From a virus, in IMG/VR virus record IMGVR_UViG_3300028837_000690, positions 1 to 21,044 of that record: 21,044 nt of DNA, one strand, 5' to 3'. Under the pieces are notes generated by a model. It made no database searches, was not told the DNA's origin, and saw nothing but the letters and a program-made list of their open reading frames with translations. The position numbers and the translations under genes were made by a program. This document shows positions 2,417 to 20,752 of the stretch, piece by piece. How positions within the stretch are numbered: the first letter of the stretch is position 1; each line of letters opens with the position of its first letter.

Positions 2417-3874
2417 ATGTCGCTCTCGGAACAATTCCTGAAACATCAGGAAAACACCGACTCCTGGCCGGCAATTTTGGGGGTGCTGGCCGGGAGCCTC
2501 GGTGTTTCATTATCTAGTCTACAAGCTCTCGGTATTGGTTGGAGCATTCAGAAGAATGCGTGGGCAGTACCCGAGCGGAACAGCATTGGGGAAATTACCG
2601 GCCTGGTCTACAGACACCATGACGGCCGACAATGGTGCGAGACGGGTTCTAAACGTGGGCTGACGTACGTAGTTCAGAGCGTGACCCCCGCAGCCCAACT
2701 GGATCAGACGTACAACCCAACGAAACAAACCTGGACCAGGGCCACCAGCACCGATCCCTGTCCTATCTGCAACCACGAGAAATGGTGCTCCTTTGACGGG
2801 GACCATACTCCACCTGAATTCATCCGATGTATGCGAAACTCCGAGGGAGCCATCTACCATGATCGGGACGGAGGGCACATTCACGAATTGGTGCCTGGCG
2901 GATTCAAACCACTACGGAAGACCTCGGCCTTAGAGCAGTCAGAGCTACCGATTCTGATTGTAGAGGGGATGTCTGACGTGGCAGCGGCTTTTGACCTGGG
3001 CTATCAGGCCGTGGGCAGGCCGTGTGCCGGGGGTAAACTGACTGCCACGTTTACCCAAGAGCTTGCTCGACTAGTCACTGGCCGGGACGTGGCTATAATC
3101 GGGGAAAACGATTCGGGAGCAGGTGTTGAGGGGATGAAGGCGGCGTTCTACGCTCTCCGGGGTGTGGCTCGCTCTGTTGTGAAAATCCTGCCGCCCACAG
3201 GCATTAAAGACTTACGGGAGTGGAAGAAACTGGGGGTAACTCAGAAGCAGCTTCAGACAGCGATCAGCCAGGGGGATACCACCACCGATCCGAACATCCT
3301 GGAAGATGTCAACCCACTGCCGCTTGCGAAACGATGGCTCCAGGATACTCGAACTGAAGACGGTTTTCGTACCCTCCAATACTGGCTAAAAGACTGGTAT
3401 ATGTTCGACGGGGTGAGCTATAAGCCGGTTGCGGACCACAACCTCCTGAAACACGAACTATATTGTTTCTGCGATGGCAAGCAGTATCTAAAAGGATCGC
3501 CGAAGGGACCGACTCTCGAAAGCTACGCTCCCACGAAAGCCAAAATCGAGGCGATCATTGACGCATTGTTGCATTTACGTCCTGTATACGATAACCCCCC
3601 TGTGTGGCTGACGAAAAAAGAAGATCGTACGGCTGCAACCCATGTGTTAATATTCCGAAATGGCCGTCTCGATCTGTTGCGACATCTCGCAGGGAAGCCA
3701 AATGCGTTTGAACCTAATGCAGCCGATCTGTTTGCTCTCGCAGCGATTCCATACGACTTTGTAACCAAAGCAGATTGTCCCAGGTGGCGGAAGTTCCTGG
3801 AGGAAGTTTTCCCCGCTCGTCCTCGGGCTCAAGCGGTAAACAGAACTGTGCCTCGACGACGATGCAGGATATAG
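2417..3874 (+). CDS. TOPRIM primase-helicase, N-terminal part (frame broken)
   Basis: These 485 residues hold a zinc-binding region (C115, C118, C124, C139), a TOPRIM domain with ILIVEGMSD (about 179-187) and the acidic motif IIGENDSG (about 227-234), then a D5_N-like region (about 300-450) leading to CPRWRKFLEEVF (454-465), the entry to an SF3 D5/P4-type helicase. TOPRIM primases make RNA primers and the helicase unwinds the fork; phages often fuse the two. After residue about 466 the sequence becomes arginine-rich nonsense (ARPRAQAVNR) and stops. The true continuation resumes in the +1 frame at about 3835. Compared with the family, roughly 50 residues including Walker A are missing at this point, so the protein as read here would lack helicase activity. 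A weak AAGGGC site precedes the ATG. Confidence 0.8.
   Translation: MSLSEQFLKHQENTDSWPAILGVLAGSLGVSLSSLQALGIGWSIQKNAWAVPERNSIGEITGLVYRHHDGRQWCETGSKRGLTYVVQSVTPAAQLDQTYNPTKQTWTRATSTDPCPICNHEKWCSFDGDHTPPEFIRCMRNSEGAIYHDRDGGHIHELVPGGFKPLRKTSALEQSELPILIVEGMSDVAAAFDLGYQAVGRPCAGGKLTATFTQELARLVTGRDVAIIGENDSGAGVEGMKAAFYALRGVARSVVKILPPTGIKDLREWKKLGVTQKQLQTAISQGDTTTDPNILEDVNPLPLAKRWLQDTRTEDGFRTLQYWLKDWYMFDGVSYKPVADHNLLKHELYCFCDGKQYLKGSPKGPTLESYAPTKAKIEAIIDALLHLRPVYDNPPVWLTKKEDRTAATHVLIFRNGRLDLLRHLAGKPNAFEPNAADLFALAAIPYDFVTKADCPRWRKFLEEVFPARPRAQAVNRTVPRRRCRI
2452..2507 (+). other. Long stem-loop at the 5' end of the primase gene
   Basis: Bases 2452-2473 pair with 2484-2496 plus 2499-2507. This gives 22 base pairs with two G-U pairs and one 2-base bulge (CC at 2497-2498), closing a 10-base loop (2474-2483). 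The innermost 13 pairs are G+C-rich and the outer nine continue as AAACACCGA against TCGGTGTTT. It starts 35 nt after the primase ATG, inside codons for about residues 12-30. A stem this long is unlikely by chance in coding DNA. It could tune translation, protect the RNA end, or act as a DNA hairpin for replication. The function is unknown. Confidence 0.75.
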
Positions 3875-4563
3875 CCGACAAGTTCGGTAAGGCGAGCTTG
3901 TTGGACAAGTTTGCCATCATTATGCCGGATGCCCATAACCTCGATAACGCTATACGTGCGTTGGAGATTCTCAAGGCCATCACAGGTTGCGATACGGTTA
4001 ACGTCAACCGTAAATTCCGAGACGATATCCAGGCGTCACTCAGCGGTAAAGTGACGATGGCGATGAATGAGTTGCCCCAGTTGCTCGACAAATCAGCCGC
4101 TCTCCGTAGACGTATGCGAACGCTACGGTTTGGTGTTTCTTTCGAGGGACACGAGGACTTCACCCTAAAGGAAACGCTGCGAGGCGAAACACAGGGTATT
4201 CTCCTGTGGGCTATTTCCGGGCTCAAACGAATCATCGAGCGGAAACACTTCACGGCTCCGGGGTCCGCCGACCGAGAGACAGCGAACGAACTTATCCGCT
4301 TGAATGCTCCGGCCATCGAATTCGCAGAGGAATGTTTGGAGGGGGGCGATACGCTACTGGAGTCCTGTTCAGTTGTCTATGCCTGCTGGAAAAACTGGGC
4401 GAAGGAACATGGATTGAATCCGGGTTCAGCCGCACAAATGAGTCAGAATCTTCGAACCGTATACGCGAAGCTCCCGGTTGTACAACTACGTGCGACAGGG
4501 CGGAAACGATCCTACCAGGGCATTCGTGTGACTGACGCAGCAAAACAGGAATACCTCAAATGA
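3775..4563 (+). pseudogene. SF3 (D5/P4-type) helicase, C-terminal part, displaced frame
   Basis: This frame carries the C-terminal half of the same primase-helicase. Family-like sequence begins at about 3835 (GKQNCASTTMQDIADKFG) and continues through LLDKFAIIMPDAH (Walker B-like strand with acidic end), VNRKFRD, VTMAMNELPQL (sensor-like, usually TNELP), RRRMRTLRFG (usual arginine-finger region) and ILLWAISGLKRI. A winged-helix-like tail follows, with CWKNWAKEHG at about 4384-4413. No convincing ribosome site precedes the frame. It opens with TTG at 3775 and the first ATG is at 3862, so independent translation is doubtful. The Walker A loop expected between WRKFLEEVF and this block is absent. 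Either a deletion with frameshift inactivated the gene, or the assembly lost about 150 bases. The stop overlaps the next start as ATGA. Confidence 0.75.
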
Positions 4564-5406: not shown

Positions 5407-5716
5407 TTGTCCCCATGTCGAACCCGGATGTCTAGCATGTTTGGGATGCCGTTTGGCAACGGTTGACTGGAAAAATCATCCTTGTAGGGGGATAGTAAAA
5501 ATGACGTTTGAGAATTTTCCATCGGGGGAACTTGAGGAAATGGAAGTGACTGAGATAAAGACGCTCGACCAACTGGTTGCCGTCTATGAGGCAGCCAATA
5601 CAGGTAAAGCCACACTTGGTAACCAAGGGCAGGCTTTAGATGGTTACTCGGAACTTGCCAATTATCGAGCTATCCTGGCCCAATTTCTTGCCGCCAGGGA
5701 AGGAAGACAACAATGA
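5399..5716 (+). CDS. Small protein with N-terminal Cys cluster, unknown
   Basis: These 105 residues start in an overlap with the ligase stop (ATG 5399, TGA 5404-5406) after AAAGGGA. The N-terminus CPHVEPGCLACLGCRL plus a later Cys offers five cysteines and a His, and may bind zinc. The rest (EELEEMEVTEI-like acidic stretch and a helix-rich ALDGYSELANYRAILAQFLA) has no recognised family. A second possible start is the Met at 5501 (MTFENF), which has GGGGGA 8 nt upstream, so a shorter product without the cysteines may also be made. The ending overlaps the next gene by ATGA. Confidence 0.65.
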   Translation: MPDCPHVEPGCLACLGCRLATVDWKNHPCRGIVKMTFENFPSGELEEMEVTEIKTLDQLVAVYEAANTGKATLGNQGQALDGYSELANYRAILAQFLAAREGRQQ

Positions 5717-6624
5717 ATAGTGAAGGTGAATTCCGAACGTTTAGCAGTGGGGCCGTACGAGATACGGCGAAGAAAAAACCTATGGTTCAATTGATCTCCC
5801 CCTTCTTCCTGCGGGACCTGGGTGAATGGCTGCGATTTGCCTGTCGGGATCGGAAGCCGAAGCCGTATCCTCCACGTAACTGGGAGCGAGGAATGCCATT
5901 TAGCGAGACTGTCGGTTCCGGTTTCCGGCATCTACTTGCTATTATGGAGGGTGACGAGACCGAAGATCATATCGCCGCTCTCGGTTTTGCAGCAATGGCC
6001 CTAGCTCACTACCGACACGAGATTGAAGCCGGTCGCATGGATCCAGAACTCGATGATATGCCGAAATACGAGCAAGAGAGTTGTCCAGTTTGCGGACGTA
6101 GGGTTGAAGCCTGCATGGTTCCATTCAGCGGCAAGAAATATGATTGTCCCGCTTGCAAGTGGACCTCTCTCGACCCACCGCCCGAGCCCGAGATAGGATC
6201 AAAAGCGGATGCTCTGGTCAAAGAACTGATTGCCTCGGCCGACGAGGGCCAACGGATTATGTACATCGCCGGGCCGATGCGAGGGATAGCCGAGTTTAAC
6301 TTCCCCGCTTTCGATGCAGCCAGAGACCATGCTAATCGTTGCGGCATTGTCGCAATCAGCCCGGCTGACCTGGACCGAGCGGAATTTAGCGACAGTCTTT
6401 CGCAAGGGGACTTACAGGAATTCGAAAACCACCTTACTGATATTGTGGAACGAGATACACGGGCGATTCTTGCAATTGCTCGCAGCGGGAACCCCGGCGG
6501 CGTTGCTGCGTTACCGGGATGGCGAAAAAGCACGGGTGCCGCAGCAGAGGTAACTCTTGCTCGCTGGTTAAAACTTTCTGTGGTATCAACTAAGGATTTC
6601 AAGTCCACGGAGGAAATATGGTGA
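5713..6624 (+). CDS. Fusion: DUF5664-like dNTP hydrolase, zinc ribbon, DUF4406
   Basis: A 303-residue three-part protein. Residues 1-115 match the DUF5664 pattern (family title: dATP/dGTP diphosphohydrolase, N-terminal): FSSGAVRD, ISPFFL, PPRNWERG, FRHLLA and DHIAALGFAAMAL, with acidic EDH residues as in MazG-like all-alpha enzymes. Residues 124-148 form a zinc ribbon (CPVC...CPAC). Residues 181-290 match DUF4406, a fold related to nucleoside 2-deoxyribosyltransferases: MYIAGPMRG, FNFPAFDAAR, RDTRAILA and LPGWRKSTGAAAE. Such phage enzymes are thought to tune nucleotide pools, but neither domain's substrate can be told from sequence. The two domains are normally separate proteins, so a fusion points to related substrates. 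The start is an ATGA overlap. No adenylosuccinate-synthetase-like gene (PurZ) is seen, so a Z-DNA genome is not supported. Confidence 0.8.
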   Translation: MNSEGEFRTFSSGAVRDTAKKKPMVQLISPFFLRDLGEWLRFACRDRKPKPYPPRNWERGMPFSETVGSGFRHLLAIMEGDETEDHIAALGFAAMALAHYRHEIEAGRMDPELDDMPKYEQESCPVCGRRVEACMVPFSGKKYDCPACKWTSLDPPPEPEIGSKADALVKELIASADEGQRIMYIAGPMRGIAEFNFPAFDAARDHANRCGIVAISPADLDRAEFSDSLSQGDLQEFENHLTDIVERDTRAILAIARSGNPGGVAALPGWRKSTGAAAEVTLARWLKLSVVSTKDFKSTEEIW

Positions 6625-9795: not shown

Positions 9796-9806
9796 TTATC
9801 CAGCAT
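9696..9806 (-). pseudogene. Start of a late-operon gene, truncated
   Basis: On the - strand an ATG at 9806 overlaps the end of the 1686-residue gene, with GGGAGG (9815-9820) 8 nt before it, an excellent ribosome site. The product begins MLDNQDRNEIDDRIKTHVQT and goes on YMQSLVETH, a polar, helical and protein-like sequence. At about 9720 it turns into a short basic end (LKLRTRP) and stops at 9696-9698, which lies inside the NUMOD4 frame on the other strand. It is probably the start of a longer late gene whose remainder is not in this window. Confidence 0.55.
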
Positions 9807-12800
9807 ACCAGCTACCTCCCGAAGTTGGTTTAGGCGGGGATGGGGGCGATGGCGGCCTGGGCAATACACCAGGTTTCCGTGTAATTCGGTCCACTATCGC
9901 ATTGTATCGTTTATTCTCAGCTTGAAGCTCCCGCCGAAGCTCGGGCTTCAAGGATTTCAAAAACGCCTTCTGTCGCTTCGCCGCTAGATTGATCGGCTGA
10001 CGAGACCGTAGACTGCTCCGTAAACCCGTCCGTGCCTTCTCCCCGGTTCGACCCTGCTCTTTGGCCCAGGTTTTGTACGCAGCCAGGGCTTCATCTATGT
10101 CGTCGTAATTGCCATCTCGAATCGTCTCGAACACCCGGTAATAATGGTAATTTGTCGGAGCACCACGACCCCCGCGATACGGGTCCTCCCCCTGGCTCAC
10201 TTGCCACGCCCGTACGTGCTTCCTGGCCCGATTATACCGACCACGCGAGGGATATACCAGGCTGGTCCACTGATTGCGGATCACTTTGTAGAGCGGACTG
10301 TACCGGGCAGCGAGGCTTTGGAGTCGCCTGGCCCAAGGCGTCCCCTCGTAGTGCCCCATGCCCGTCAGAGCCGACCCCACATCGCACAACACACCGGCAG
10401 GGAAGATGAGCTTGGTGGCTGCTTCGTACAAGTTCCCGTCCGAATATTTAACGGACTCAAACAAACGGTAAAATGGGCCGAATACGCCACCCTCGACCAT
10501 ACATTCTGCCAACAATGTTGCCCAGTTTTCCGGGTCTTCTGGATCAACCATTGGCTCTCGCTTCAAAGCTCGTCGCAGGTAACGAGACACGGCCCCCTTG
10601 CCAGTAAAAGCAACAGCCAGGGCCATTAACGTAAGGCCCGTTTGAGCGGCGGAAACTGCGGCCTGAGCCCGTATGTTCTGTGGCTGAGACCTGTCTGTGG
10701 CATCTCGGATATCATCCACAAGACCTGATACGACATTGCGGGTTAGCCTAGTCGTAGCCGTAATAACTGACAAGAACGGTAACATCACCCGAGCGACTGG
10801 ATTGTTCTGAATCCACCCTTTGTTGATAGCCGATTCAGTAAGACCTTGGACAGCAGCCGTACCATTTTGAATTGCCGCCACACGAGTCTGAGGCGACATC
10901 TCGCCACGTGCAACCTCCAAGATTTGGTTATCATTTAGCTTGCAGATGCGTCGTAGTATTTGCCGATCATGGCGACCCAGCCCGGTCTGAGTATTTAATG
11001 CTTCTACATACGCATCGAATTGCCGAGCCGCCAGATATTGTGCCCGTCGTTCAGTGAAGCGACCGACAATCATCCCGGCAGCCCGCACGTCTTTGATGAG
11101 CAGATCGGACAAAAACGAATCACGATGTAGGGTATAGTCGGTATACAATTCTGTATGAACAGCCCCCATCGCCCGATAGGCTGCATCGAACTGCTTAGGG
11201 CTCGTCACCATCTGGTGTAGCCCTTTCAGGAATCCAGTAAACCCCCGTTTACCGGTAATAGCAGTTGCTACTGTCCAATGAAGTGCATCCCATAGGGGGC
11301 TTAGATTCAACATGCTCGTTGCTACAGCGTTATATGCACCACGAATTGTGGATCGTATTGCACTTGGTTTACCGGAAGCAGGCATGAAGAAGTCATCAAA
11401 GGGGCCAGATGTATCAGGGATGTTGTTGTAGTTAACTATCAGACGATTGAACAACCTAGCACTACGACCCGGACTTCTTCGGCTACGGCGGATAGTTTCA
11501 TTTCGTAGCCGGTCCAGGAGTCCGTCGATGTCGGTGATTTCCGGGTGAGCTTTCATCGGATACGAGGATTTACCTGTTTCCTCATCATATTCCCCGTACC
11601 GAACTGTCAGATTATCCTGGATCATGCGACGTAGAATCAGTTCTCGCACCTGCTGTCGCGTCGTAGTACGAAAGTGATTCAACGGTTTACGTCGTGTAAA
11701 TTCCACAGGTTTTCCGTTGACCACAACAACCTGCGGGACAGCTTCCATTACCCGGACGAAATTCAACGCCCCGGTACGTTTACGCTCCCCCACACGTTCG
11801 GTCTCAGCTTGAGTCTCCATGCGTTTTGTGAGCAGTTCACGTATTGAAACACTTTCCGCCTCAGCGGCTTTGTGGGTTCTCGGGTTTAACTCCGGGTGTT
11901 GTTCGACCCACTCAATGTACGCATCCCAAACTGGACCTGTTTGATAGGCGAATGCGTCCATCCCGGCCTTTGTAGGCATCCGAAAATACCTGCCACCTTT
12001 GGCCTTCTTGAATATTCCGACAACCCAATTGCCATCTTTACCCATCTGAATTTGTGGGGCTTTCAGCTTGACTGCCAGATCACCGAGAACATCTTGTATG
12101 CTACGGTAGTATGCAACCAGTTGTTTGACCGGCTCAGGCACAGTTTCTTTTGCGACTGTCTCTGGTCGCTCGATCAATGTAGCCCAGTTGGTTGTACCAT
12201 CGGGTCGAAGCTGATTCATCCAACGAACCACCCCGCCGCGTCTACGACGAGGAATCCCCATGAGTAAGTCGTCCCAACCCTTGACAATCTCAGCCTCGTA
12301 TTTTCGAGATTGATTGTCGGCTGCCTGGAACAGGTCAGTTGCAAAGGCCCCGCCATTAGAAGCCATCCGCAAAGCGTGACCCTCATCCAATACGAGGGCG
12401 TCGATGGCACCGGCAGTATCTACTGCCATGTCAGTCACAGACGCCACGGCACCTGCGGCTCGCTGGGCCATGAACTGTGGATCAACGGCTCCGGCTTCAT
12501 CCGTTAGCAGACTCTTGATCCCGTCAATCACCGGGTTAGGTGGGTAATTGTCTCGACCATCCGTAACCGGGTCTGCGGCCATTGCATCTTCACTGGCAAC
12601 AATTGTTTGTGTGATATCAGCCACTTGTACGACTTCAGGAAGCTGTGTACTCATCGGAGGCGAACCTATTGCATCTGCCTCAGCCTCCGAAACTGCTCGA
12701 CTGGCTTCCGGCGGCTCACCCGTAACTTGATCGGCCAAAGCCTGAGCTATCATAGCCTCTGTTTCAGAACGAGTACGGGGCTCCCCATACTGTTCTTTCA

Positions 12801-14856
12801 GCCGTTCTTTGCGGGACTCGACCTTCTTATCGGCAGAAACTAGCAGAGTATCTAAGTCACTGCCCGGTGTGTATGTGACAGGCTGGCCCACCAGGAATAC
12901 ACTCAAACCGGGGATGAGATGTTTACGGCAGGCTTCCTCAATGCGAGAATTAACTACCTCAGCCCCTCGTTTAGTTGTGTTAGGGAGAATTACTGCAAAC
13001 TCATCGCCACCGTATCGAATAACCACAGCATCGGACACTCGACCAGTGCTTGCCCCACGTAGAGAATTCGCAAGGGCTCGTAAAAACCGATCACCACCTT
13101 TATGACCTAATACTGTATTAGCAGCTTTGAAGTGTGCCGCATCAAGTAGAATTACAGAAAATGGCTGGCCTGTCTCATCAGTCCGTTGGCGAAATTTAGC
13201 TAGAGTTTCCGTATATTGTCGTTTATTCCCGAGGCCGGTCAACTCGTCCGTGCGAGCCTCAGCCCTAGCCTCATCCCGCTCTTGCGTCAACCGTTCGATG
13301 GTTGGATCACCCTCTGAATCAGGGGCCGGTGTGGCTCGCGACTCTGCACCAGGTTCCTGTATAATGATCTCAGGACCACCCCTGGCATGATCTCGTACGG
13401 CTTCAGTCGGAGCAGCTTCAGCCTCGGGCGATGGAGCTACAGAGCGTGATCCTTCTACAAACTGGTCCGACCGTTCTAGACTACTTTCGGTTCTGCCTGC
13501 TGTTTCTCCAATCGAAACCGGATCAACAGGTGGTAACGGACTATTGGGACTAACCTCTTGCTGACTCACTGGATCGGCTGAATACGGCCCCTGCCAGGCT
13601 ACACCGGCCACTGTGCCGCCCGCTATGCCACCCACCAACCCCTCAAATGCAGCCTGCTTCACGCTGCTAAATAGGTTCTGCCACGTCACGTCCCGCAAAT
13701 CCAGGCCATACGCTATGGCCTCTTGCGTGAGAGACTGGAGGGCTTCTGTCCCGCTTTCAGTACCCGCCCCTAAAGCGATTGCAATTATACGTTTCCGGGC
13801 TCCGGGAACCTTCTTCTCAAGCATTTGAAACGGACCAAAATACTCCAAAGCCGATGCAGCCGCAGCATACAGGAGCGAGCCCACAAACGCTTGTGTGGAT
13901 GCCTCGCTGGCCGGGATACCCTTCTCAGCAGCGTATTGGAGATATTGATCGTACGCCCCCGCTCCTTCTAGGGCAAACATCGAACCAACAGCAGAGGCCC
14001 TATTAAGGAAAGCAGTGGCTTTATGCGATACGACCTTAGCTGCCTGTGCAGTTGCCACCTTACCCCAGCCCAACGATTCGGCTAAGGCTGACGCCCCTTT
14101 TGCAGTTTTTGCAGCCATAGCAGCTTTGTGTGCGGCCGAAGCACCGCCAGCCAATATTGATAGTTGAGGCACAACCTCACCCAAGGCTGACGCTACATCA
14201 GCAGTAATAAACCCCTCATCACCCTTTAAAGTAATACCGCCAAGACCTTTACCCTCCCTGACTCGTTTATCCAGTTCATTCAAACGCAGTCGTTCTCGGG
14301 TATATGCGTTTGTGATGGGGCCGGGATCAGCCGCATACGACACCGCTTCACCCATAGCTAGACCACCCCTATATCCAGCCGTCGCTAATTGCCAAGTACC
14401 CTTCGGAATACCCAGGAAAAAGTTCTTGATTTCCGACCATGCTGGCGTATAGGATGATTTCGCTTCGCCATTTTCAAACACAATAGCCGGTAGACGTTCG
14501 GTGCCGGGGAACGAGAAACCTTCCTCATGCAGACGCTTGTGCACATATTCGAGTATCGTGCGTTCTGATGCGTCTTTACGACTCGCTAGAAGCTCTGTTC
14601 GTAGAGCATTCGCCCGATCAACTCGCTGTTTTGTAAATTCCAAGTATGCGTGCTTTATGGCCCCCTCTTGTTTGAATTCCTCGGTGGCATGTTCCCGTGC
14701 TTTCTCGTATGCCCCCCTCGGTAGAGATTCGCGGAAAAATCTACGTTTCATATCCTCTACAGTTTCCGACGGGGATAATACATGCGGTCTGCCGGGAGTA
14801 GGAGTTTCATACGGCTCTGGTTGTCTGATTCCCACGGCATTTATATTGGTCTCCAT
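9796..14856 (-). CDS. Giant internal virion-like protein with GGDEF domain
   Basis: A 1686-residue protein, last full gene of the late operon. The N-terminus (about 30-115) is helical and charged. Residues about 215-430 are Ala/Gly-rich with several hydrophobic stretches that could insert in a membrane. A disordered Pro/Ser/Glu stretch (430-520) leads through a helix to a GGDEF domain (about 533-687) with DELTGLGNKR, LLDAAHFKAAN, GHKGGD and RYGGDEFAVIL. Residues 700-1500 are mostly helical and unrecognised, resembling the large ejected proteins of podoviruses, and the end is Pro-rich (RPPSPPSPPKP). The start overlaps the preceding gene by 16 nt with only a weak GAGATGG site. Such proteins are packed in the head and injected to help the DNA cross the envelope; this role is inferred from size, neighbours and composition. 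No lysozyme or transglycosylase motif was seen. Confidence 0.8.
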   Translation of the reverse strand: METNINAVGIRQPEPYETPTPGRPHVLSPSETVEDMKRRFFRESLPRGAYEKAREHATEEFKQEGAIKHAYLEFTKQRVDRANALRTELLASRKDASERTILEYVHKRLHEEGFSFPGTERLPAIVFENGEAKSSYTPAWSEIKNFFLGIPKGTWQLATAGYRGGLAMGEAVSYAADPGPITNAYTRERLRLNELDKRVREGKGLGGITLKGDEGFITADVASALGEVVPQLSILAGGASAAHKAAMAAKTAKGASALAESLGWGKVATAQAAKVVSHKATAFLNRASAVGSMFALEGAGAYDQYLQYAAEKGIPASEASTQAFVGSLLYAAAASALEYFGPFQMLEKKVPGARKRIIAIALGAGTESGTEALQSLTQEAIAYGLDLRDVTWQNLFSSVKQAAFEGLVGGIAGGTVAGVAWQGPYSADPVSQQEVSPNSPLPPVDPVSIGETAGRTESSLERSDQFVEGSRSVAPSPEAEAAPTEAVRDHARGGPEIIIQEPGAESRATPAPDSEGDPTIERLTQERDEARAEARTDELTGLGNKRQYTETLAKFRQRTDETGQPFSVILLDAAHFKAANTVLGHKGGDRFLRALANSLRGASTGRVSDAVVIRYGGDEFAVILPNTTKRGAEVVNSRIEEACRKHLIPGLSVFLVGQPVTYTPGSDLDTLLVSADKKVESRKERLKEQYGEPRTRSETEAMIAQALADQVTGEPPEASRAVSEAEADAIGSPPMSTQLPEVVQVADITQTIVASEDAMAADPVTDGRDNYPPNPVIDGIKSLLTDEAGAVDPQFMAQRAAGAVASVTDMAVDTAGAIDALVLDEGHALRMASNGGAFATDLFQAADNQSRKYEAEIVKGWDDLLMGIPRRRRGGVVRWMNQLRPDGTTNWATLIERPETVAKETVPEPVKQLVAYYRSIQDVLGDLAVKLKAPQIQMGKDGNWVVGIFKKAKGGRYFRMPTKAGMDAFAYQTGPVWDAYIEWVEQHPELNPRTHKAAEAESVSIRELLTKRMETQAETERVGERKRTGALNFVRVMEAVPQVVVVNGKPVEFTRRKPLNHFRTTTRQQVRELILRRMIQDNLTVRYGEYDEETGKSSYPMKAHPEITDIDGLLDRLRNETIRRSRRSPGRSARLFNRLIVNYNNIPDTSGPFDDFFMPASGKPSAIRSTIRGAYNAVATSMLNLSPLWDALHWTVATAITGKRGFTGFLKGLHQMVTSPKQFDAAYRAMGAVHTELYTDYTLHRDSFLSDLLIKDVRAAGMIVGRFTERRAQYLAARQFDAYVEALNTQTGLGRHDRQILRRICKLNDNQILEVARGEMSPQTRVAAIQNGTAAVQGLTESAINKGWIQNNPVARVMLPFLSVITATTRLTRNVVSGLVDDIRDATDRSQPQNIRAQAAVSAAQTGLTLMALAVAFTGKGAVSRYLRRALKREPMVDPEDPENWATLLAECMVEGGVFGPFYRLFESVKYSDGNLYEAATKLIFPAGVLCDVGSALTGMGHYEGTPWARRLQSLAARYSPLYKVIRNQWTSLVYPSRGRYNRARKHVRAWQVSQGEDPYRGGRGAPTNYHYYRVFETIRDGNYDDIDEALAAYKTWAKEQGRTGEKARTGLRSSLRSRQPINLAAKRQKAFLKSLKPELRRELQAENKRYNAIVDRITRKPGVLPRPPSPPSPPKPTSGGSWYAG
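12796..13260 (-). other. GGDEF (diguanylate cyclase) domain inside the virion protein
   Basis: Residues about 533-687 of the giant protein follow the GGDEF family in order: a helical lead-in, DELTGLGNKR (537-546), LLDAAHFKAAN (570-580; D572 matches the metal-binding Asp, N580 the guanine contact), GHKGGD (584-589), RYGGDEFAVIL (614-624) and an end LLVSADKKVESRK like the usual AD.A.Y.AK. Diguanylate cyclases make cyclic di-GMP from two GTP as dimers. An inhibitory-site-like RVSD (606-609) sits six rather than the usual five residues before GGDEF. The second Asp of the DxD motif is replaced by Ala, which varies in the family. Activity is plausible but not proved. Confidence 0.88.
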
Positions 14857-15749
14857 TGACCATCTCGTTTGATGACTCGCCGTACAACTTGACCATTTAC
14901 CACGTTTTTCAAGACGTGGCCTTCCTCGTAACTAGCAGGATCAGGAAGTTGTTCCTCGGATTGTGCGGGAGCTTGATCCGGTTGACCTCTACCAGTAAGT
15001 GGATCATACAACGCTTCAGTCTGCACACGAAGCTCTTGGGCTATTCGGTCTATCTCGGTGCGATACGCATCGACTTGTTTCTGCCAAGCTCGGGTTTGTT
15101 CGTCACTAAGAGTAGTACCCACCAAAAAGCTTTCTGCACGTGCAAGCCCCTTCTTCAGTACATCCAATCGGGCTCGCGGTCCCGCCGTGACAGCGGAGAG
15201 ATATGCTTCCGTGGGCGACTTGGGTGCAAACGTCTCAGGATACTGGACTCCCTGGCCCCCGAGAATTCGTAGCTTGTTCTGGCTGTACGTAAGCGGGTCG
15301 ATCTGCCCCTGTTGTAGCTGAGCATCTAACTCCTGAAGTTGGAGAGTTTGTTGCGGGCCAATTGCTGGTTCTGGTGCCTTGGGATACTGGACTGCCTGAC
15401 CCCCAAGAATTCGTAATTTATTTCGGCTGTACGTAAGCGGATCAACCTGGCCCCGTCGTAGTTGGGTGTTCAATTCCTCAAGCTGGAGAACCTGCCGTTG
15501 GCCAACTGCCTTAGCAAACGGCGATACTGCTTGTCTACGGGATGTCGGCGTTCGAGTTTGAAGGGCAGCAGTCTGGAGAGTAAATGCTCGTTCCTGAGCC
15601 TGTTGTCGATTAGATTCCGCTTGTCGCTGTTGGGCCAACGCCATCAATTTGATGTCACGCTCGAACGCCTGTTGCCACCCAATACCACGACCGGACATCT
15701 CGGCTAACCGTAACGCTGCCCCCATCGGGGCTGTAGTCATTGTTGGCAT
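14841..15749 (-). CDS. Putative internal virion protein with 48-residue tandem repeat
   Basis: A 302-residue protein with GAGGAAA before its ATG. The N-terminal 60 residues are helical and Gln/Ala/Arg-rich (MALAQQRQAE). Residues 83-177 are two tandem copies of a 48-residue unit built on LQLxELxxQLxxGQxDPLTY and NKLRILGGQ.VQYP. Then follow a coiled-coil-like region (about 180-245) with DEQTRAWQKQVDAYRTEIDR and a C-terminal beta part, NVVNGQVVRRVIKRDGQWRP. It lies between the small Gln-rich protein and the giant GGDEF protein, the place of internal core proteins in podoviruses, which suggests a core or ejection role (inference). No sequence family was recognised. Confidence 0.65.
   Translation of the reverse strand: MPTMTTAPMGAALRLAEMSGRGIGWQQAFERDIKLMALAQQRQAESNRQQAQERAFTLQTAALQTRTPTSRRQAVSPFAKAVGQRQVLQLEELNTQLRRGQVDPLTYSRNKLRILGGQAVQYPKAPEPAIGPQQTLQLQELDAQLQQGQIDPLTYSQNKLRILGGQGVQYPETFAPKSPTEAYLSAVTAGPRARLDVLKKGLARAESFLVGTTLSDEQTRAWQKQVDAYRTEIDRIAQELRVQTEALYDPLTGRGQPDQAPAQSEEQLPDPASYEEGHVLKNVVNGQVVRRVIKRDGQWRPI
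15219..15503 (-). repeat. Two tandem 144-bp coding repeats
   Basis: The unit from about 15503 to 15360 is repeated from 15359 to 15219 in the same frame. Both encode the DPLTY(S)(R/Q)NKLRILGGQ motif, and the DNA also matches closely (for example GAATTCGTA near 15263 and near 15407). The copies differ mostly by single substitutions, so the duplication is recent relative to the gene or kept under selection. Confidence 0.85.
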
Positions 15750-15767: not shown

Positions 15768-16334
15768 TTACCACCCTTTTTTGAAACTTTCCCACCCCGA
15801 ACCGAATTTCGATGAAATTGTTCGTGTTACTGTTCTCTTCTTCGACGGTGCGGCAGCGGCAGATTGAACCAGGCTAGCGAATTGGCCAATATCGGGTCCT
15901 TGAGTTTGCCGACTCCCCATTGCGGCTAATCTCATACCCCCAAGACCCATCTGCATCTGAGCTTGCTGGGTGAGCAAATTCGCCTGTTGGCTAGTCTCCA
16001 TTTCAGTTTGTCTCGCTAGTGCCCGTTGCTCGTCGCTACTGATACCGCGTTTAGCAGCTTCTCGGACTGTAGTACCACTCAGTCCACGACTAATCAGGTC
16101 TTGTTCCGACTGACCTCTAGCCTGTTCAGCGGATTCGGCGATGTCTGCTCGGGCTGCCCCACCAAGCGTTCCAGCGAGTTTTCGGGCTTGACCATACAGA
16201 CCCTGCGATCCAAGTTGTTTACCAAGGTTGTTGATATATTGAATCATCTGCTGGTACTGCCGCATGTTCTGTGCATTGGCCTGGTTCTGAGCCGCTTTGA
16301 TCTGTTCAATGATACCACTAATGTTAGTTGCCAT
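15768..16334 (-). CDS. Small Gln/Ala-rich virion protein, probably internal
   Basis: A 188-residue protein, rich in Gln, Ala and Met, mainly helical: MRQYQQMIQYINNLGKQLGS, AARADIAESAEQARGQSEQD, and ETSQQANLLTQQAQMQMGLG. The end is short and basic (RTVTRTISSKFGSGWESFKK). GGAG lies 7 nt before the ATG. Composition and its place before the repeat protein and the giant protein fit the small internal or ejection proteins of podoviruses (comparison with T7 gp14 by layout only). It starts 3 nt after the tail-fibre gene stop, so it is in the same operon. Confidence 0.6.
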   Translation of the reverse strand: MATNISGIIEQIKAAQNQANAQNMRQYQQMIQYINNLGKQLGSQGLYGQARKLAGTLGGAARADIAESAEQARGQSEQDLISRGLSGTTVREAAKRGISSDEQRALARQTEMETSQQANLLTQQAQMQMGLGGMRLAAMGSRQTQGPDIGQFASLVQSAAAAPSKKRTVTRTISSKFGSGWESFKKGW

Positions 16335-16337
16335 GAG

Positions 16338-18557
16338 TTAGCTCCATGAAACGCCATCGGTCCCGGTTGCTGCCGGGGATGCTTGGCTTGTGAGAATACC
16401 GCCTGTAAATCCTAACTGAACTCTACCCCCATTAACCTCTACGTCCAGTGTACCTGTTAGTCCGTCAGTTCCGTTGAGATTGAATGCCACATCTGCTCGA
16501 ATCGTGTCTGCTGCATGAACGTCTTCTTGGGCAACTGCCGCTCCACCAAAATACGAATGCCCCACAAAGACGTTCCTGGCTGTCGCCCCAACCTGATAGA
16601 TTCCCCAGTGAGTCGTAGTATACATCCGATCCAATACACCCGTACTATCGTCCGCACGGAGAGAACGATAGACTGTTGCTCGAATGCCGGTCAAATGCCC
16701 GGTATTGGTTTTACCGGCGGCTACTGTTTCTTGAGAAACATACTCTAATGCAATGCTGTTGGTGGCTCCACCCCCGTATGCAGCGGTACATTGCATAGTA
16801 TTGCCAATATACCACATATACCCCGGACAAGCATCAATGTACGTTGTGACCGAACGCATGTAACTCCCAGCAAATGGCGTTATATTAAACACACCACCAG
16901 TTGATTGAATCGTGCTGGCATTGATATTTATGTTATCTACAGAAAGACCCGCAAACGTGGGGGAACTCGCTACAGTAACAGCCTGGTCGATGTACCCATG
17001 ATCGGAACCATCACTCGAAGCATGAGTGAATGCCGTATCCCAATTTGCCGAGCTATCGGTGACAACTGACAGTGCCCCGGTCCCGGTAGTGACCTTCAAC
17101 AGCCCCGTAGCTAGAGCGGAAGAAACGTGGGTGATAGCTGTCTGGACAAAATGTTGGTCGGCCGCGTAGTTCAACAGTGCGTTGTGGTCAATCTCACCAT
17201 CTTGTGTGGCGGCAGAAATCACATCCCCTATATCATTGTACGTGAATACGATATTACCAACTGTGCCGTCATCCAGTATGGCACCAATTGCATCCTGGGC
17301 TGCCTCACCGAAGTCCGAGATTGTCGCGGCCAACTGGGTCCCTGTATGATTAGCCCGTGCTCTATCGGTGTCGTGGTAGTGAAGGGCACTCTCACCGGCA
17401 TCGGTGAGGTCCGTACGATTCGCGGTTGTGAGATGGTAGTAGTCGTCGGCAGCACCACCTTGTATACCTCCAAGATCGTTGTGATTATCTACACCTGTGG
17501 CGGCAAATTCGATATCGAACGCCGAGGCAACTGTAGTCGTATTGGTATTCTGCTTGACGATGATCTTTGCAGCCAATACTGTCATGTTTTCTACGAGATC
17601 GGGTATATCGCTCGGGGAAGTTGCATCCTCGGCCTCAGCCAGTTTGTAGCTGTTCCGTCCATACACGATATGGTAGTGCCCGTCGATTCCGGCATACACC
17701 CAATGCACGCCATAACGACCTACCCCGAGAGCACCAAGCGGGGGAGTTCCATCATCATAATTGAGATTGTCGATTACGGTCTCGCCCGTTGATTCAGTCC
17801 ATCCACCCGCCCCATCTCGATACCAATAACTGAATGTATTCCCGCCGCCCACAGTTGAATCGAACAGAGCAACCGTGAAGTGGTCGATATACCGCCACAC
17901 AATACCTTCTGTCGAGAGCACGTGCCGTGTAGCATCCGTACTTACGACGACTCCAGTTGCCCGTTCAAAACCACATACATCCCGAACTCGCCTCCGATTA
18001 CGTGCGTTATGGTCCTGGAATCGGTGCCCCAAATTCAGGATATGTAACTCGTCATCCACACGATACACCCACCCAATCAGAATCTCTGTCGTGTCGTTGA
18101 TCGTTGTGCGGTCTAACGTGGTATTCAGAGTGGGGGCATTGTCGGTATCCACATACTCAAGGAACACGTAATTCAGTTTATTGTTTACCAGATCAACATC
18201 CGTCTCCCCGGCGTAATCGAAGAATACGTTAGCCCCAACTTCAGACGCCGTTGTTTTAATAATACCCGTAGCAGCAGAGACATCTATCTGTCCGAGACCT
18301 GAATCAGAGATTACCCCACCCGTTAGAACACATGCACTTTGCGTGAGGTCTGACCAATGTTGTACAGTCGTGTAGGTAGGTGTGAGGTTTTGGCCCATCT
18401 GCAACAGGCCAGTTATTAACCCGGTAGTCGTCACACCAAACGCACCGAGATCGGTATCTTTGACTGCCCCGATATACGGAACAAATCCTGAGCCGACGCC
18501 CGCCATCGCTCGGCGTAACCGTGCGGGTTGTCCCGGTACGCGATCCAAGTCATACAT
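16338..18557 (-). CDS. Tail fibre / receptor-binding protein
   Basis: A 739-residue protein, AAGGAAA 8 nt before the ATG. The first half (about 1-350) is beta-rich and unrecognised; it includes a segment GRYGVHWVYAGIDGHYHIVY that I have seen as a theme in phage fibres. The second half has typical fibre or shaft patterns: HNDLGGIQGG and YYHLTTANR, HTGTQLAATISDF, DHGYIDQAVTVASSPTFAGL, then a beta-rich tip and an end with TSQASPAATGTDGVSWS. Such fibres bind the host surface. No catalytic (lyase) motif or chaperone domain was recognised. The stop of the upstream tail gene lies 2 nt before its start. Confidence 0.75.
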   Translation of the reverse strand: MYDLDRVPGQPARLRRAMAGVGSGFVPYIGAVKDTDLGAFGVTTTGLITGLLQMGQNLTPTYTTVQHWSDLTQSACVLTGGVISDSGLGQIDVSAATGIIKTTASEVGANVFFDYAGETDVDLVNNKLNYVFLEYVDTDNAPTLNTTLDRTTINDTTEILIGWVYRVDDELHILNLGHRFQDHNARNRRRVRDVCGFERATGVVVSTDATRHVLSTEGIVWRYIDHFTVALFDSTVGGGNTFSYWYRDGAGGWTESTGETVIDNLNYDDGTPPLGALGVGRYGVHWVYAGIDGHYHIVYGRNSYKLAEAEDATSPSDIPDLVENMTVLAAKIIVKQNTNTTTVASAFDIEFAATGVDNHNDLGGIQGGAADDYYHLTTANRTDLTDAGESALHYHDTDRARANHTGTQLAATISDFGEAAQDAIGAILDDGTVGNIVFTYNDIGDVISAATQDGEIDHNALLNYAADQHFVQTAITHVSSALATGLLKVTTGTGALSVVTDSSANWDTAFTHASSDGSDHGYIDQAVTVASSPTFAGLSVDNININASTIQSTGGVFNITPFAGSYMRSVTTYIDACPGYMWYIGNTMQCTAAYGGGATNSIALEYVSQETVAAGKTNTGHLTGIRATVYRSLRADDSTGVLDRMYTTTHWGIYQVGATARNVFVGHSYFGGAAVAQEDVHAADTIRADVAFNLNGTDGLTGTLDVEVNGGRVQLGFTGGILTSQASPAATGTDGVSWS

Positions 18558-18559
18558 TA

Positions 18560-20752
18560 TTAGTGTTTCCTTGTACGACCCGTGACATCCACGTTGGCTA
18601 CCAAATTCTCAACAGCCCACGTTTCATCTAAAACTGCATTCGACAGCTTCAACATAATTGCATTCCCCGTAACTCGATTGGCGATTGTTGTACGCCCTGC
18701 CGAGAGAATGCGAGCGGAACGAATCGTTGTCGCCTCGATTGCTTTTTGGGCCGTTTCTTCGGCGTACATTGTCAATACAACATCACCCGATTCAGAATCC
18801 AGTATCGCCGTAACACTGTTAGTCCGCGTGTTTCTTAGCGGCCCGCCTACTGCGATTGGGGGATAAAGAACGTACGAATTGATAGCCACTCCGTCATCAC
18901 TTTTTGCCGCCGAATCGAATCTACGTAGCCAACCGTCGAATCCGCCGAGTATAATAGCATTATCGTTGGGCCTATCCCCATCAAAAGTGAACACTGTCGT
19001 CGGACCTTGAGCATTCGGGATCGCAAGTTTCCAGAAACCGTCAGTCCGTTCATCCCAGTAATAGTGTATAGTCGCCCCCTCGGTACGAGGCACTATGAAA
19101 ATAAATAGGCCGTGCCGTACGCTATCCCATGTGAGATGAACTGCATTAGTCGTTAAGTCGATAGAACCGAACGTTCGATCCATACGATTTCTGGACAGGG
19201 GTTCGGGAGCCCCTCCGGCAACCATACGCCAAATCGCTCCTGACCCGAAGAAATAGAGCACACCGTTAGGGTCAAACGCAAACGCATCCGGTCCAGAAAT
19301 TCCTGTTTGGTAACTGATATTATCTATCCGTCCTCTGTCTGCCGGATCGCCTCGCATTATCCACAAGGTATGGTCGCCACCAATGTACATGAGATCGTCG
19401 GAATATGGAGCAAGACACGTAACAATATCGGGACATTTACCTGCATCCGTGGTGTTCCCGGCAACAGCCATTGTCGCTGATACCGCTGCCCCATAATCCC
19501 AATTGAGCGGATCACCCACCGCCGACATGAACCAGTTGTGGGGGTCCTCCACAAGTCCTGATAGTACGACCCTACCTCGATACAAGGTTATGTACCGGGC
19601 TATTTTAGTCCCCGATACCGGCAGAGCACCGCTTGTGGGAGTCCATGCTGCAACCGTATTTGTCAGAGGGGTCCACTTTCTGTAATTGGCAGGTTTACCA
19701 GCACAGAAATAAACCAAACCAAATGCTTCTTGTGCCCCTACTCTACCCGTAGTAACTAGAGCGTTGGTTCCGCCTATCGCAGGCCGCAGAAATTCTTCGA
19801 GAGGCCGACCTGAATAAACATCGCCACCTGACACAGCTACAATCTGGTAGTCGCGGGAAGAAACCGAAGGAATATGGGTGAAACTCCAATTATCCATTAT
19901 GATTGTGTTGCCAACTATGTTATTTTTATAGGCGTGAAATCCGACGTATAGACCGGGGTAGGCAGGAGAGGCGGGATCATCTCTGACGAATGTTTCGACA
20001 AGAACACCCGCAACATAAACCTTAAATGTGCCGCCTGTCACCCTAATCTTCAATTCTTTCGGTGCTGCCCAATACGCCGGATCGAGCCAATCATCAGACC
20101 CCGGAGTAGCATCTACTGCACCATTACCTATCCCGGCGTACTCTAACTCGAACGTGTAAACCCCGCCAATGAACGTCATTTTAAGGGTTAATACCTGGTA
20201 ATTTATTACATTGAACGGGAATTCAGGTACTTTAGATCGAGCAATGAAACCGGCATAGAGAGTGCCACCTGCACCTGCTACTAGCGTTACGTCGGCCTTT
20301 AACTCGAATGTTTCCCCACTGATTTGTGCCGATTTATGGAACGCACAAGCCCAAATACTACCGGGAGTATTAGCGTTATTTAGTGTGACTGCATTAGTTT
20401 GGATGTGCGGATACGTCGCACTTAAATTGGCATTCGGATAAGTAATTAGACATGGGTACCAGTCGGTATCATCCAGGACTCCATTAGCCTGAGTAAAAGC
20501 ATCGGTTACTGGGTCATTCACTACCGAGCGTGTAAGGGACGTTATTTTTTGCAGTGGGGTTGCTCCGTTATGGAGGGTGGTAAAGTATTTACTAGTGCCG
20601 CATCGTTGCCCGCCACGTGCTCGGGATTGTATAGAATCAAACGGAATGACATTCAGAGCATCGGGGGAGGTTCCCGGTGGCTGATGTCCAAAAGACCAAT
20701 TTTCATTGACGCCCTGTAGGGGGAAAATCAAATCCTGAGGCTCAACAGGCAT
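18560..20752 (-). CDS. Tail/neck stabilisation-type protein with LamG-like insert
   Basis: A 730-residue beta-rich protein with GGAGG just before the ATG. The N-terminus (PLQGVNENWSFGHQPPGTSP, then DALNVIPFD and GGQRCGTSKY) is like that of P22-gp10-type packaged-DNA stabilisation and tail proteins. The C-terminal 400 residues carry repeated beta-propeller-like blades (DDLMYIGGDHTLWIMRGDPA, GVLYFFGSGAIWRM, HYYWDERTDGFWKL, AIILGGFDGWLRRFD). Between them, residues about 84-293 form a concanavalin/LamG-like domain with ISGETFELKADVTL, LYAGFIARS, LKIRVTGGTFKVYVAGV and TIIMDNWSF, typical of sugar-binding or lectin-like modules. It would join the portal or tail tube and might contact surface glycan. 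The first and third parts are a reasonable structural call; exact function is inferred. Confidence 0.7.
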   Translation of the reverse strand: MPVEPQDLIFPLQGVNENWSFGHQPPGTSPDALNVIPFDSIQSRARGGQRCGTSKYFTTLHNGATPLQKITSLTRSVVNDPVTDAFTQANGVLDDTDWYPCLITYPNANLSATYPHIQTNAVTLNNANTPGSIWACAFHKSAQISGETFELKADVTLVAGAGGTLYAGFIARSKVPEFPFNVINYQVLTLKMTFIGGVYTFELEYAGIGNGAVDATPGSDDWLDPAYWAAPKELKIRVTGGTFKVYVAGVLVETFVRDDPASPAYPGLYVGFHAYKNNIVGNTIIMDNWSFTHIPSVSSRDYQIVAVSGGDVYSGRPLEEFLRPAIGGTNALVTTGRVGAQEAFGLVYFCAGKPANYRKWTPLTNTVAAWTPTSGALPVSGTKIARYITLYRGRVVLSGLVEDPHNWFMSAVGDPLNWDYGAAVSATMAVAGNTTDAGKCPDIVTCLAPYSDDLMYIGGDHTLWIMRGDPADRGRIDNISYQTGISGPDAFAFDPNGVLYFFGSGAIWRMVAGGAPEPLSRNRMDRTFGSIDLTTNAVHLTWDSVRHGLFIFIVPRTEGATIHYYWDERTDGFWKLAIPNAQGPTTVFTFDGDRPNDNAIILGGFDGWLRRFDSAAKSDDGVAINSYVLYPPIAVGGPLRNTRTNSVTAILDSESGDVVLTMYAEETAQKAIEATTIRSARILSAGRTTIANRVTGNAIMLKLSNAVLDETWAVENLVANVDVTGRTRKH

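Follow-up and report, generated by a model that had tools for sequence, protein, structure and literature searches.

The 21,044-base stretch analysed here (hereafter the window) is an IMG/VR virus record, a metagenome contig from an uncultured phage. Its rightward genes, which encode a Sak4-like AAA protein, a GroES-like protein, a D5-type primase in two pieces, an RNA ligase and a metallophosphoesterase, converge on five leftward late genes encoding proteins of 730, 739, 188, 302 and 1686 residues. These five genes are nearly contiguous, with gaps of 2, 3, 18 and -16 nt, and the coordinates given below for them and for their parts all refer to the minus strand. The cassette consists of (i) the gene for a 730-aa late structural protein (18560..20752), a probable tail tube or nozzle protein, which was our anchor for finding relatives; (ii) the gene for a 739-aa late protein, a probable tail fibre (16338..18557); (iii) a small gene (188 aa, 15768..16334); (iv) a medium gene (302 aa, 14841..15749), which overlaps the start of the giant gene by 16 nt and has the position of T7 gp15 and N4 gp51, with no sequence similarity to N4 gp51; and (v) the last gene, which encodes a giant late protein of 1686 aa and ~180 kDa (9796..14856). 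None of the structural proteins of the window has a PHROG or Pfam match; these genes are called late structural because of their synteny with a related viral locus, L010, which displays a portal match (E 1.7e-7) and a weak terminase match. Note that the D5-type primase/helicase (2417-4563) is spread over two ORFs that overlap and differ in frame, of which the first contains D5_N and the second DUF5906 plus a weak Pox_D5 match; the split is a frameshift, either real or from assembly.

The 730-aa tail protein used as a query retrieved 80 loci, many of them with room for downstream genes. The order tail protein, fibre, small, medium, giant is conserved in related viral contigs, with equivalent small and medium genes ahead of the giant, and syntenic giants are present in L010, L011, L013, L014, L016, L148, L153, L155, L161, L166 and others. 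Relatives were found only by means of tail-protein and GGDEF queries: a scan of viral contigs with the whole giant yielded no relative, and when its C-terminus and the tail protein were compared by tblastn with 50,697 phage records, nothing was retrieved. The tail protein is 63% identical to its L010 counterpart and 33-40% identical to those of other groups, while the 188-aa protein is conserved at 31-40% in the same cassette of L010, L011, L013, L014 and L016. The first ~40 residues of the 739-aa protein are 62% identical to those of L010 and the remainder is divergent.

The giant comprises several parts with distinct affinities. Its N-terminal domain (residues 1-440, 13537..14856), the proposed virion or delivery part, resembles the L157 giant (28% identity over residues 26-435, E 3e-31) and also the L154 giant. 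The syntenic giants of this phage group have an N-terminal domain family in common, and hhalign aligned the window N-terminus with it at E 1.5e-4 (0.14 for the reversed control), a signal of moderate strength that vanished against the other giants when L157 and L154 were withheld from the window profile. The window N-terminus is thereby probably a distant member of the family common to the giants of the group. A preliminary description of this DNA had called the N-terminus membrane-prone, which its Ala/Gly richness weakly favours (19% Ala and 12% Gly in residues 140-440); no 19-residue stretch in that region reaches a Kyte-Doolittle mean of 1.4, and classical transmembrane segments in the N-terminus were rejected on hydropathy. 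The two stretches of this length that do reach the threshold, 1399-1418 and 1483-1501, both lie in the C-terminal half.

The N-terminal domain is followed by a Pro/Ser/Glu-rich linker (residues 441-517, 13306..13536; residues 440-515 contain 14% Pro and no Lys), a lead-in helix (residues 518-534, 13255..13305) directly preceding the GGDEF diguanylate cyclase domain (residues 535-685, 12799-13257), and a clade-specific module tail with a GExxTRxEA motif, recognised in the alignment of eight viral giants (residues 686-705, 12742..12801). Between the module encompassing the domain (residues 475-722) and its L013 counterpart the identity is 48%, and by BLAST the flanks of the L013 module do not match those of the window giant. 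The C-terminal region (residues 716-1686, 9799..12711) is predicted to be largely helical; its structural model was unusable (pLDDT 43). Some 970 residues of this region (716-1684) align end to end with residues 605-1575 of the L153 giant, at 39% identity over 983 columns, and L153 has no GGDEF domain and a low-complexity linker where the window giant has one. Since the N-terminus, the GGDEF module and the C-terminus each match a different relative, the window giant is a three-part mosaic (related to L157, L013 and L153, respectively) with junctions in Pro-rich linkers.

GGDEF is the sole domain that Pfam recognises in the window giant (PF00990, residues 535-685, E 1.3e-25; score 90.5 bits, curated cut-off 23.8), and all PDB sequence matches of the protein fall within it, including the solved diguanylate cyclases GcbC (5e-18) and WspR (2e-16). 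The domain had been placed at 12796-13260, i.e. residues 533-686, on the strength of its motifs, and DELTGLGNKR, D572, HFKAAN, GHKGGD and RYGGDEF are indeed all present. An AlphaFold model of the module, built from eight viral homologues, has a pLDDT of 75.6, with a core above 90; with this model, the top Foldseek hits were solved diguanylate cyclases (E 9e-9, TM to the target up to 0.71), and nearly all the PDB matches listed were diguanylate cyclases or GGDEF domains, which bears out the fold. The helical lead-in previously noted corresponds to helix 17-33 of the model, predicted with moderate confidence. Across eight viral giants, whose identity goes down to 29%, 24 columns are invariant, among them D572, K577, N580, D589, G616, G617, D618, E619, K683 and K687. 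The residues kept here are catalytic in PleD and WspR. Altogether, sequence and model indicate that the GGDEF fold is real and its active site intact; the enzyme may turn over.

Two departures from the canonical motifs had been correctly pointed out. The Ala that replaces the second Asp of DxD (D572-A-A) is normal for the viral clade, being found in most members. The other concerns the RxxD motif, which lies one residue further than usual from GGDEF: the window has RVSD, six residues and then GGDEF, versus five residues in WspR and GcbC, and thus lacks the canonical product-inhibition site, defined as RxxD five residues ahead of GGDEF. In the relatives the spacing is 4 or 6, or the motif is absent. 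This product-inhibition site is not essential for cyclase activity. The end of the module, RKxxxKxxxGExxTRxEA, is clade-specific and stands where bacterial cyclases have YxAKxxGRN; the GE and R of the module tail are invariant in the eight giants, and the tail (residues 686-705) has no counterpart in the aligned GcbC and WspR fragments. Because YxAKxxGRN is replaced and the spacing of the inhibition site is altered, turnover is not assured. As for the product, the GacA spacing from Asn339 to residue 348 (PMC6456294) designates N580 and D589 as the base-recognition pair; an Asp at the base-recognition position drives GTP specificity (PMC6456294), and D589 predicts c-di-GMP as the product of the window domain.

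Compared to the bacterial cyclases WspR, PleD, GcbC and SadC, the window domain has the same fold, the same active-site residues and a helix ahead of the domain, whereas it lacks a sensor domain, has a changed C-terminal motif and inhibition-site spacing, and belongs to a separate cluster of the GGDEF tree. Small GGDEF proteins are known in phages (Bacillus phage SP-15, Bordetella phages LK3/CN1, Yuavirus; PMC8471281); these are likewise phage-encoded, but free-standing and not part of a virion giant. The search for GGDEF domains in large viral proteins, suggested by the preliminary description, brought up about 15 giants besides that of the window, ranging from 1463 to 4256 aa. Most GGDEF matches in the phage collection were small or bacterial-type cyclases and were left out, and ordinary bacterial cyclases from a scan of genome contigs were used only as an outgroup.

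Among the syntenic giants, a GGDEF domain is present in L011, L013, L014, L016/L017, L161, L166 and L225 and absent from L010, L145 (the giant ORF of which runs off the contig end), L146, L147, L148, L151, L153, L155, L171, L183, L184, L187 and L217. The tail-protein tree joins the window in a pair with L010, a locus lacking GGDEF, inside a clade of eight in which the window alone has the domain; the distribution of the domain on this tree requires four changes, at least three of them forced by supported branches. In the GGDEF tree the cassette giants form one cluster (85/94) that excludes bacterial cyclases and most of the small viral ones, and a second set of giants, L042, L055, L239, L242 and L243, forms a separate one (94/88). 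Given these two clusters, GGDEF probably entered giants at least twice. Two giants of the second kind (L042:7730-20386 and L055:7649-20416) exceed 4200 aa and combine a Thr at the base-recognition position with a GGDEF motif, a combination reported for hybrid-promiscuous, cGAMP-capable GGDEF enzymes (PMC6456294), and domains of this type are predicted to use ATP in addition; the L243 giant has an Asn at this position.

The slot occupied by GGDEF holds something else in other relatives. The giants of L147 and L155 have a radical SAM domain there (Pfam E 2e-17, CxxxCxxC intact), so that depending on the relative the slot contains GGDEF, radical SAM or a linker. It is an evenly balanced proposition that the giant ejection protein works as a cargo bay, in which related phages would swap one unrelated enzyme for another (diguanylate cyclase, radical SAM) or keep the slot as a bare linker. 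The slot would then lie behind a conserved delivery domain and ahead of a variable C-terminus, and each kind of virion would inject its DNA together with a different enzyme, comparable to the swapping of tips in polymorphic toxins. The domains of the radical SAM giants (L155:6729-11621 and L147:6673-12249) are closest to PhpK-type B12 radical SAM methyltransferases; the L151 giant has a portion of this module that lacks the Cys motif.

GGDEF is the only known domain of the window giant, and other GGDEF giants add polyvalent-protein domains: LPD38 in L014, ART-PolyVal in L012 and ddrB-ParB in L235. The L012 protein (L012:5693-16795) is a 3700-aa viral protein with GGDEF and ART-PolyVal, and the L235 one (L235:6718-11556) a 1612-aa viral giant with GGDEF and ddrB-ParB, from a phage with no detectable relative of the window tail protein within the stretch examined. 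A ParB-like domain seen by eye in L011, L014 and L157 received no confirmation from Pfam and is not claimed.

The plan of the cassette is that of known ejection systems. In short-tailed phages a single operon encodes the ejection proteins in the order small, medium, large (PMC8954989). T7 gp14, gp15 and gp16 follow this order, as do the 188-, 302- and 1686-aa proteins beside the 730/739-aa tail genes of the window; T7 gp14, with 196 aa (PMC8954989), is close in size to the 188-aa protein, and the large protein is mostly helical in T7 and, by prediction, in the window. T7 gp16 carries a transglycosylase, whereas the window giant has a cyclase domain instead, and the two show no sequence match. 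The likeness to N4 extends to the genome layout, rightward early genes including a primase and a Sak4-like gene converging on leftward gp53-gp52-gp51-gp50, and the Schitoviridae ejection operon (PMC12633501) has the tail, small, medium, giant order found in the window. N4 gp50, a 3500-aa protein, consists of a membrane NTD, a linker of ~100 residues, an RNA polymerase, a second linker and a CTD. Its ejection follows that of gp52 and gp51, and it folds again in the cytoplasm, still anchored to the membrane (PMC12633501). The window giant shares the NTD-linker-enzyme-linker-CTD build, with a cyclase domain in 1686 aa in place of an RNA polymerase in 3500 aa. Aligned by hhalign with the N4 gp50 NTD, the N-domain family gave E 0.002 with a probability of 13%, and the CTD gave no match; homology to gp50 is thus not established, and we speak of an analogy of plan, not of membership.

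We therefore favour, with a probability of roughly 55%, the reading in which the giant is the third ejection protein of a phage of short-tailed type, built like the N4 virion RNA polymerase and carrying a diguanylate cyclase as cargo. This reading relies on the conservation of the GGDEF fold and active site in eight divergent viral giants, the Asp (D589) at the base-recognition position, the nearly contiguous five late genes with the small-medium-giant order of podovirus ejection operons, the resemblance to the N4 layout and to the build of gp50, the N-domain family common to the syntenic giants, the changing content of the slot in different relatives, and the polyvalent-protein domains in sibling or analogous GGDEF giants. 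The lack of a PHROG/Pfam structural match, of significant gp50 homology and of a clear N-terminal transmembrane segment counts against it, as do the replaced YxAKxxGRN and the altered inhibition-site spacing. The preliminary description had likewise proposed an ejected giant with a GGDEF domain: the fold, the intact active site and the embedding in a giant late protein are borne out, and the place and order of the genes suit an ejection-protein operon; packaging, injection, cyclase activity and purpose are inferred, and effects on biofilm, motility or receptors putative. In the proposed mechanism the head would hold a few copies of the giant, which would pass down the tail once the small and medium ejection proteins had gone and regain their fold at the inner membrane, where an oligomeric assembly could join the GGDEF domains via their lead-in helices and let them dimerise without a bacterial sensor. 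From the onset of infection host GTP would then be turned into c-di-GMP, and the probable gain is a rise in its level ahead of phage gene expression. Motility arrest, a change of envelope or polysaccharide and interference with cyclic-nucleotide defence are candidate benefits; the N4 receptor is described in one report (PMC8669472) as a c-di-GMP-dependent glycan.

If the giant is ejected with a domain that binds nucleotides instead of making them, it would act as a GTP/c-di-GMP sensor or sponge, or as a protein-interaction module. Degenerate GGDEF domains are receptors in bacteria, LapD for instance, and RxxD is kept, with unusual spacing, in several members, and the C-terminal K/R motif is unlike that of bacterial cyclases. 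However, receptor-type GGDEFs usually lose active-site residues, whereas all the core ones are invariant here in eight giants down to 29% identity and the RxxD site is the feature that varies, so that we regard a sensor or sponge as unlikely. Quite unlikely, too, is an anti-defence cargo, in which c-di-GMP, or the domain as a binder, would disturb CBASS, type III CRISPR or Panoptes and not biofilm or motility. Delivery ahead of gene expression would suit such a role, and the L042/L055 cluster has the Thr expected of cGAMP-type enzymes, but D589 of the window domain predicts plain c-di-GMP, which, as far as we know, CBASS does not typically use as its signal. For GGDEF in polyvalent proteins, a disturbance of nucleotide-based host responses was put forward by Iyer et al. 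2017 (PMC5512222).

It is quite improbable as well that the giant is a late protein that is not ejected, be it a cytoplasmic or scaffold protein that would raise c-di-GMP before lysis or a tail component. Late expression alone is no proof of packaging, but the gene order and the NTD-linker-enzyme-CTD build match ejection proteins, and most of the seemingly free-standing cyclases are small viral proteins that stand apart in the GGDEF tree. Finally, a chance motif or an assembly chimera of a bacterial cyclase gene and a phage gene, conceivable for a 21-kb metagenome contig when L153 has the same C-terminus without GGDEF, has a negligible probability and is in practice refuted, as the GGDEF stretch has no internal stop and the reading frame continues across its two junctions; an identically placed GGDEF domain is found in seven more cassette giants, mostly encoded by complete ORFs, and these domains cluster together, apart from bacterial ones.

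Returning to the ejected-cyclase reading, part of it has precedents. Iyer et al. 2017 (PMC5512222) described polyvalent proteins, giant phage proteins encoded near late genes and predicted to be injected, some with GGDEF, which they suggested interferes with host nucleotide responses; their example is WP_004096050.1 from an Acetonema longum prophage. The window giant resembles these in being a very large protein (1686 aa) beside virion and late genes, as the last gene of the late cassette, and in its GGDEF. It differs in that the example has at least nine domains, whereas only one enzyme domain can be recognised in the window giant, which belongs to a compact ejection cassette. Radical SAM is not mentioned in the main text of that article, and our literature search found no description of the compact cassette, of its recurrence in many phages or of an exchange of GGDEF, radical SAM and empty linker at one slot. 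To the question left by the preliminary description, whether this architecture was already known, the answer is hence partly yes, for GGDEF in giant phage proteins predicted to be injected; what is new is that related phages exchange the content of a putative cargo slot. If the giant is ejected and active, the second-messenger state of the host would be changed before any phage gene is read, and the slot would be a natural site for injected protein cargo. Occurring with GGDEF, with radical SAM or with an empty slot, the cassette provides a natural comparison in which the role of injected enzymes is testable module by module.

Two other genes of the window deserve mention: a GroES-like (Cpn10) gene (1041-1388) in this small phage genome, with no GroEL seen in the window, and a gene (5713-6624) in which a dATP/dGTP diphosphohydrolase N-terminal domain is fused with DUF4406.
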